Shown piece after piece: positions 1-881 of a DNA stretch of 64,000 nt. Every line of letters starts with the position of its first letter. The first letter of the stretch is position 1. The notes below the pieces were generated by a model. That model was not told where the DNA came from, made no database searches, and saw nothing but the letters and a program-made list of their open reading frames with translations. This stretch comes from Thiomargarita sp. GTDB lineage: Bacteria > Pseudomonadota > Gammaproteobacteria > Beggiatoales > Beggiatoaceae. Both the position numbers and the translations under genes were made by a program. The stretch is taken from NCBI GenBank assembly GCA_020721005.1, contig DYNP01000009.1, positions 2,127 through 66,126 of the forward strand. Reading direction: 5' to 3'.

Positions 1-881
1 CCCATACCGGACATGCCACCCATACCGGACATGCCACCCATACCGGACATGCCACTCATACCGGACATGCCACCCATACCGGACATGCCACCCATACCGG
101 ACATGCCACCCATACCGGACATGCCTTGTTGGTTACATTCTTTTCCAGCCATGCCTGCCATGCCCATACCCATGCCGCCCATGCCCATACCGCCCATGCC
201 CATGCCGTACATTGGGTACATACCACCTATACCACCCATACCGCCCATGCCATAGTTCATGCCGTACATTGGGTACATACCACTCATGCCCATGCCGCCC
301 ATGCCACCCATACCGCCCATACCATAGTTCATGCCGTACATTGGGTACATACCGCCCATGCCCATGCCGCCCATGCCGCCCATACCGCCCATGCCATAGT
401 TCATGCCGTACATTGGGTACATACCGCCCATGCCCATGCCGCCCATGCCGCCCATGCCATAGTTCATGCCGTACATTGGATACATACCACCCATACCCAT
501 GCCGCCCATGCCCATGCCGCCCATACCGCCCATGCCATAGTTCATGCCGTACATTGGATACATACCGTTCATACCCATGCCCATGCCGCCCATGCCGCCC
601 ATGCCATAGTTCATGCCGTACATTGGGTACATACCGCTCATACCCATGCCGCCCATGCCATAGTTCATGCCGCTCATGCCCATGCCACCCATACCGCCCA
701 TGCCATAGTTCATGCCGTACATTGGATACATACCATCCATGCCCATGCCGTAGCCCATGCCCATACCGTACATTGGGTACATACCGCCCATACCATACTG
801 GGCAGTGACGATTTGTGGCATAGCCACCAAGGTGCCAATCATTGCGATAAGACCAACTGATTTTTTGAAATTACGCATCAT
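1..881 (-). CDS. Met/Gly-rich secreted repeat protein (C-terminus beyond window edge)
   Basis: The minus strand is open without a stop from an ATG pair at 881-876 to the left edge, giving about 293 residues. The first 26 residues form a classical signal peptide (basic MMRNFKKS, hydrophobic core, cleavage after VTA before QYG). The rest is a repeat built almost only from Met, Gly, Tyr, Asn and Pro: MYPMYGMNYGMGGMGGMG occurs about nine times with small length changes, then a short AGKECNQQGM segment with the only Cys seen, then an 18-bp hexapeptide repeat (MSGMGG) to the edge. A ribosome site (AAGGA) lies about 12 bases upstream. Plus-strand open frames here are shadows caused by the periodic CAT/GCC codons. 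I do not recognise a family. Met-rich tracts can bind Cu(I)/Ag(I), and Gly/Tyr/Met-rich tracts can be structural or amyloid-like; neither is shown here. Confidence 0.8.
   Translation of the reverse strand, partial: MMRNFKKSVGLIAMIGTLVAMPQIVTAQYGMGGMYPMYGMGMGYGMGMDGMYPMYGMNYGMGGMGGMGMSGMNYGMGGMGMSGMYPMYGMNYGMGGMGGMGMGMNGMYPMYGMNYGMGGMGGMGMGGMGMGGMYPMYGMNYGMGGMGGMGMGGMYPMYGMNYGMGGMGGMGGMGMGGMYPMYGMNYGMGGMGGMGGMGMSGMYPMYGMNYGMGGMGGIGGMYPMYGMGMGGMGMGGMGMGMAGMAGKECNQQGMSGMGGMSGMGGMSGMGGMSGMSGMSGMGGMSGMGGMSGM

Follow-up and report, generated by a model that had tools for sequence, protein, structure and literature searches.

A methionine-rich secreted protein of Thiomargarita sp. and its relatives, a probable part of an apparently undescribed envelope redox system

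The 64,000-nt window analysed here (the whole stretch G000:C11:2127-66126, part of a 4.05-Mb draft genome of Thiomargarita sp.) opens with a minus-strand frame that a sequence-only reading took to encode a secreted protein of about one-third methionine; sequestration of soft metals, scavenging of oxidants and formation of a structural polymer were offered as its function. Is this a real protein, and what might so much methionine be for? The frame is single and open over 293 codons (881 to 3), exits at the window edge, and is the only Met-rich ORF of its kind in the 64 kb. It starts with ATG, with AAGGA ~12 nt upstream. The protein, designated type A (3..881, minus strand; cut by a scaffold gap at the window edge), begins with a probable Sec-type signal peptide MMRNFKKSVGLIAMIGTLVAMPQIVTAQ (798..881, minus strand) that was called by eye rather than with SignalP, and whose cleavage site is approximate; the same N-terminal pattern is seen in relatives. 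There follow nine MYPMYG units, seven of them with the full MYPMYGMNYGMGG, a Cys-containing spacer (GKECNQQG) and then MSGMGG hexapeptides, so that the organization originally described is borne out. From residue 29 on, the mature protein consists of 41.9% Gly, 32.8% Met and 10.6% Tyr, in agreement with the claimed third of methionine, and successive methionines stand at a spacing of 3 in 60 of 86 cases. A profile search of Pfam and NCBIfam gave no match to the window protein. AlphaFold, applied to this protein alone, gave no fold (mean pLDDT 37), which is consistent with disorder or with the lack of an alignment.

The repeats interrupt assembly at this point and leave frames open on either strand, and the frame might thus be a by-product of low complexity from which no protein is expressed. 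We regard this as scarcely credible, given the signal peptide, relatives in many families, conserved synteny (below) and the pattern of variation within the repeat. In seven aligned 13-codon units the variable bases number 0, 0 and 3 at the first, second and third codon positions. The Gly codons vary (70 GGC, 40 GGT and 1 GGA), as do those for Tyr, while the Met codons are 87 ATG and one ATA. Variation restricted to third positions together with fixed Met codons indicates that the reading frame is real and that methionine itself is under selection. The plus-strand frames over 3..881, which the sequence-only reading had warned could mislead annotation, are by-products of the repeat.

The window begins directly after a run of 100 N (C11:2027-2126), and the sequence to its left was checked for a stop. 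On the far side the repeat carries on in an open frame that ends ...MSGMSADKKEEK (i.e. ...MSADKKEEK) followed by a stop codon (L006:1794-2021, minus strand); the run of N is a scaffold gap, across which the frame may be continuous. A charged C-terminus of this kind closes the type-A relatives (...NKKEEK, ...DKKEEK and ...SDKKEEKK). Downstream on the same strand are a predicted conserved secreted protein of 100 aa (C11:1363-1662) and then a second Met-rich gene that runs off the contig (C11:448 to 2). The small protein has a conserved ...QGxWYTPFxxPGMxxYDIRxWH motif, with 23 invariant columns in its alignment including QG.W..PF...GM...YD.R, and had no convincing match in Pfam or NCBIfam.

At its right end, contig C132 encodes the end of a Met-rich protein (...MYPMYGMWGY, then a stop). 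Behind it on the same strand lie the genes of the operon, whose products are a pentaheme cytochrome c, a Tat molybdoenzyme, an Fe-S protein and a TorD-like protein. A start and an end of this kind each occur once in the genome, so that C132 probably adjoins C11 and a single Met-rich gene spans the two. Note that in this genome the connection from the Met-rich gene to the molybdoenzyme operon therefore crosses an unproven contig junction; Met-rich genes break assemblies.

Absence from related genomes was to have counted against the gene, but it is present in relatives. The recurrent order is Met-rich gene, cytochrome c, molybdoenzyme subunit, Fe-S subunit and TorD-like chaperone. Of the loci that hold the cytochrome-molybdoenzyme operon with at least some sequence ahead of it, 28 of 28 have a Met-rich coding stretch immediately before the operon (L007, L060, L067, L068, L070-L073, L075, L128, L129, L131-L133, L137, L142-L144, L162-L167, L170-L172 and L175), five of these stretches being short pieces where a contig ends. 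The greedy ORF picker missed the cytochrome ORF in L163 and L171, where the spacing fits a cytochrome; in L164 the molybdoenzyme gene was placed from the class-wide homology search for the enzyme. Beyond Beggiatoaceae this synteny was seen in no fewer than eleven families, of which three belong to other classes. The gene for the small secreted protein is usually nearby, mostly upstream of the Met-rich gene; it was found in 12 of 43 family genomes, and outside the family in 11 sampled genomes of the class and three of other classes in the phylum. Many clusters outside the genus of the window organism also encode a polyferredoxin-like protein, often with a small cytochrome c; this Fe-S protein follows the chaperone gene at L144:6393-7442, L132:3-1085 and L162:4159-5235. 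A short recurrent module (YFKITPQGQIFFYP / GW...GDLLLFP) occurs as an insertion in many of the Met-rich proteins and also in extra cluster genes (L132, L162, L165, L023, L025, L168, L145 and L176), and in L168 it is fused to an OmpA domain.

The Met-rich gene and the molybdoenzyme also occur together across genomes. Within Beggiatoaceae, Met-rich matches were found in 13 of 43 genomes, to which G004 was added later, its gene lying beside its molybdoenzyme operon; all 14 are among the 17 genomes with the enzyme at ≥72% identity (p = 9e-9). In the class sample every one of the 16 genomes with the enzyme (at ≥68% identity) has at least seven matches to MxGMxGMxGM, as do only 4 of the 353 without it (G077, G278, G289 and G313). 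The Fisher probability of 1.2e-24 over these 369 genomes takes no account of relatedness and serves as an indication only. We set the threshold at seven once it had proved that 1-3 matches are common; matches occur in 235 of 369 genomes, mostly at that level, which we attribute as a group, rather than match by match, to the GGM tails at the C-terminus of GroEL. A DNA pattern for MYPMYGM was also present on GTDB contigs of Sulfurovum, Legionella and others, where no Met-rich ORF was found, and these were set aside as chance matches. A further Met-rich string of MQGMMGMLGMQGMIGM type in the window genome (G000:C104:112661-112735) is unlinked to the cluster.

The association has exceptions. In the complete genome of the relative G002 a type-A Met-rich gene and the small protein gene lie ~1.7 Mb from a type-B gene and the molybdoenzyme operon, and the type-A protein of the window is thus linked to the enzyme less directly than is type B. 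At least one genome (G164) has the molybdoenzyme gene without an adjoining cytochrome or Met-rich gene. Solitary paralogues of the enzyme without a cytochrome mostly have no Met-rich neighbour, and most fall in one part of the tree. The window genome has a second, solitary DmsA-like gene, 72% identical (G000:C81:93170-95671; L141:7120-9684), that has no cytochrome, Fe-S or Met-rich neighbours.

The operon encodes a pentaheme cytochrome c, a Tat-exported molybdoenzyme of DmsA/YnfE type, a DmsB-like 4Fe-4S subunit and a TorD-like chaperone. The molybdoenzyme carries the molybdopterin fold domains PF00384 and PF01568, and its closest PDB relatives are DMSO reductase 1eu1 and 7l5i; the latter was labelled TMAO reductase in the search and is presumably the MetO reductase MtsZ of Haemophilus. 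Ser206 aligns with Ser147 of 1eu1 at the Mo-ligand position, and this serine and a pocket tyrosine are kept in 38 of 38 homologues. By these features the enzyme is assigned to the Ser-ligand group of the DMSO reductase superfamily. The SYGW motif used to recognise DorA-like sulfoxide reductases (PMC7402097) is absent, being replaced by SYAG in 35 of 38 and by AYAG in three. At the N-terminus there is a cluster motif C-x3-C-x3-H, whose histidine is present in 37 of 37. The best NCBIfam match is dmsA_ynfE at 569 bits, below the curated cut-off of 777.7, and the second (among non-exception models) is bisC at 390 bits; the Fe-S subunit scores 192 against a cut-off of 214 for dmsB. The cytochrome has five heme motifs and a weak match to DmsE (31 bits, cut-off 192). 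No DmsC membrane anchor was seen in the operon, and among the neighbouring genes we noticed no outer-membrane porin resembling DmsF.

Taking together the composition, the export signal, the synteny, the class of enzyme and the co-occurrence, we infer a substrate, an oxidant and a route for electrons. Oxidants of the envelope or the cell surface would turn the methionine residues of a probably disordered protein into methionine sulfoxide, so sparing other targets. The Dms-type enzyme would then reduce the protein-bound sulfoxides, with quinol electrons reaching it via the pentaheme cytochrome and the Fe-S subunit, so that the Met-rich protein would be recharged and not consumed. There are precedents for the chemistry. 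Protein-bound MetO, also in disordered beta-casein, is reduced in vitro by a periplasmic DMSO reductase (PMC7402097), and the DmsABC of Haemophilus reduces MetO and is induced by hypochlorite (PMC11024254). We favour this rechargeable sink because the Met-rich gene adjoins the operon of a Dms-type S-oxide reductase at every locus counted. A cycle between methionine and its sulfoxide is the best-supported reading of the cluster, although as a full account of it we consider the matter evenly balanced. The window genome also has MsrP, on the separate contig C96, which could already perform repair of MetO; this counts against a sink, as on the sequence evidence do the altered SYGW motif with its loss of Trp, the separation in G002, the C132/C11 junction and G164. 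A variant is that the protein acts as a rechargeable solid-phase store, a respiratory battery in which MetO would form while oxidants are available and be respired under anoxia by the cytochrome-molybdoenzyme chain, as a protein-bound electron acceptor at oxygen/sulfide interfaces. We think this very improbable.

The substrate of the enzyme may not be a sulfoxide at all, because the scores fall below the NCBIfam cut-offs. The operon could respire or detoxify a small sulfur compound or other oxyanion, the Met-rich protein merely shielding or anchoring the complex. The altered SYGW motif would fit this, and a Dms-type enzyme fed by a cytochrome recalls the extracellular DMSO reductase of Shewanella, albeit with a weak match to DmsE. 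Since it would explain neither selection on methionine itself nor the universally extreme Met content in the cluster, we consider it rather unlikely.

Regulation was examined next to these genes. In many genomes a divergent histidine kinase and a sigma-54 response regulator adjoin the cluster; neither was found at the window's own locus. Each of 17 kinases examined has a CxxCH heme-binding motif in its sensor region, one of them having two, and one kinase that was scanned has a weak Tll0287-like match. A candidate sigma-54 (-24/-12) promoter TGGAATTTCACTTGCT lies 181 nt upstream of the start codon of the window gene (1063..1078, minus strand), agreeing with the consensus at 9 of 12 positions, a score reached by 0.5% of shuffles. 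GG-N10-GC sites scoring at least 9/12 are present upstream of 17 of 27 start codons tested, that of the window gene included; all are putative promoters recognized by match to the consensus. A sigma-70 scan near the Met-rich locus did no better than shuffles. In the sink proposed above, the kinase with its heme motif would act by way of sigma-54 promoters to turn the system on.

The neighbourhoods bear on the first of the functions originally offered. Known copper proteins hold Cu(I) by Met motifs, and the dense MxM and MxxM motifs here might buffer Cu(I) or Ag(I) outside the cytoplasm, with the reductase keeping the Met ligands reduced; repair of MetO in the Met-rich copper chaperone CusF is documented (PMC9302797). 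No copper efflux, oxidase or chaperone gene recurs among the annotated ORFs of 30-odd neighbourhoods, nor does any neighbour for handling of silver. The recurring sensor has a heme-binding motif and no recognisable metal-sensor domain, and the Met-rich protein has few His and Cys residues. We rate metal buffering as distinctly unlikely, and of the three offered functions it is oxidant scavenging by Met sulfoxidation that the gene context favours.

A structural role has more in its favour, and we rate it as unlikely but not negligible. The protein might form a collagen-like or sheath-like extracellular fibre, or the envelope of a sulfur globule, its thioethers binding elemental sulfur or polysulfide and scaffolding the redox enzyme on or near sulfur, so that methionine would serve surface chemistry and not an oxidant sink. 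Beggiatoa and Allochromatium export sulfur-globule proteins of repetitive or hydrophobic character (PMC7356093, PMC10386293). Several relatives match collagen Gly-X-Y profiles, three of them PF01391, through the periodicity of Gly; the window protein has no such match. Hosts outside the family mostly carry SoxB. Against this, the presumed Beggiatoa genomes G010 and G029 of the family sample lack both Met-rich genes and operon, although this is tempered in that Beggiatoa nonetheless forms globules, with a proline-rich protein instead. Moreover, structure alone leaves unexplained the strict linkage to an enzyme of S-oxide reductase type. A sulfur-globule protein as the sole explanation was rejected on composition and on the absence from the presumed Beggiatoa genomes.

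A connection to organisms of the sulfide/oxygen interface, also raised by the sequence-only reading, is plausible. SoxB scored above its cut-off in 15 of 18 cluster-bearing genomes and in 7 of 18 comparators (p = 0.015), which is weak evidence because the comparators were hand-picked from the same class; the window genome itself has no SoxB above the cut-off.

The other neighbours of the window gene were also inspected. Divergent from it are three tandem paralogues of 138-140 aa (1617..2946, plus strand) with a weak EF-hand-like match. Members of this family also lie beside the Met-rich gene of the relatives L059, L062 and L065; we regard these paralogues as part of the neighbourhood and not necessarily of the Met-rich system. 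Beyond them, 3009-4052 encodes a secreted MORN-repeat protein with eight repeats past threshold (PF02493, 6e-53), and 7857-13301 (minus strand) a predicted secreted protein of 1814 aa with long repetitive and acidic regions.

We conclude that the window gene probably belongs to a conserved envelope redox system that seems to be undescribed; a search of the open-licence literature for a Met-rich protein with a DMSO-reductase operon found no description. Met-rich genes are easily overlooked by annotation and by BLAST filters because they break assemblies and are of low complexity. If the proposed cycle is correct, an orphan Dms-type enzyme would gain a likely physiological substrate, a conserved secreted protein without annotation would be brought to notice, and the life of sulfur bacteria where sulfide meets oxygen would have an explanation open to test.

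How does the system compare with those already known? With DmsABC and YnfEFGH (TIGR02166, TIGR02951) it shares a Tat-exported catalytic subunit with an N-terminal Cys cluster motif, a DmsB-like Fe-S subunit, a TorD/DmsD-like chaperone and serine at the Mo-ligand position. It differs in falling below the curated cut-offs, in having a pentaheme cytochrome c where DmsC was not seen, in the histidine third in C-x3-C-x3-H, and in the Met-rich gene alongside. The DmsEFABGH extracellular DMSO reductase of Shewanella has a multiheme cytochrome, catalytic and Fe-S subunits and a chaperone in one operon, the same components as here, whereas our cytochrome has five heme motifs with a DmsE match that is weak and no DmsF-like porin was noticed beside it. 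Sulfur globule proteins (SgpA-D; Beggiatoa ALG67575.1) are likewise exported, repetitive and of low complexity, and come from sulfur bacteria, yet they are described as proline-spaced or hydrophobic and of ~15 kDa or less. The window protein is larger (at least 293 aa), rich in Met and Gly with 3.4% Pro, and tied to a reductase operon.

To our knowledge sacrificial Met-rich peptides with a dedicated Mo repair enzyme occur in few bacteria and are all based on MsrP. The Met-rich MrpX and BcrX are encoded with MsrPQ (PMC8315932). Both MrpX-YedY1 (MsrP) of Azospira suillum and BcrXQP of Brucella have, as here, an exported Met-rich peptide beside the gene for a Mo reductase, and in both a Mo MetO reductase supplied by the quinone pool is proposed to maintain a reversible sink for oxidants. 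BcrX is described as a protein of MXKDX-type repeats, whereas ours are of Gly-Met-Tyr/Ser, and the reductase is MsrP, of a different molybdoenzyme family, with MsrQ and under an ECF sigma factor. The window protein is exported and Met-rich (33% Met) and does not lie beside MsrP/MsrQ; in the present clusters the enzyme is of the DMSO reductase family, with Fe-S and pentaheme subunits, and in many genomes is linked to a kinase with a heme motif and a sigma-54 regulator. By analogy the new cluster appears to work like MrpX/MsrP, yet it is no member of that system because both reductase and peptide are unrelated. If so, this would be a second design of methionine sink, assembled from parts unrelated to those of the MsrP type.
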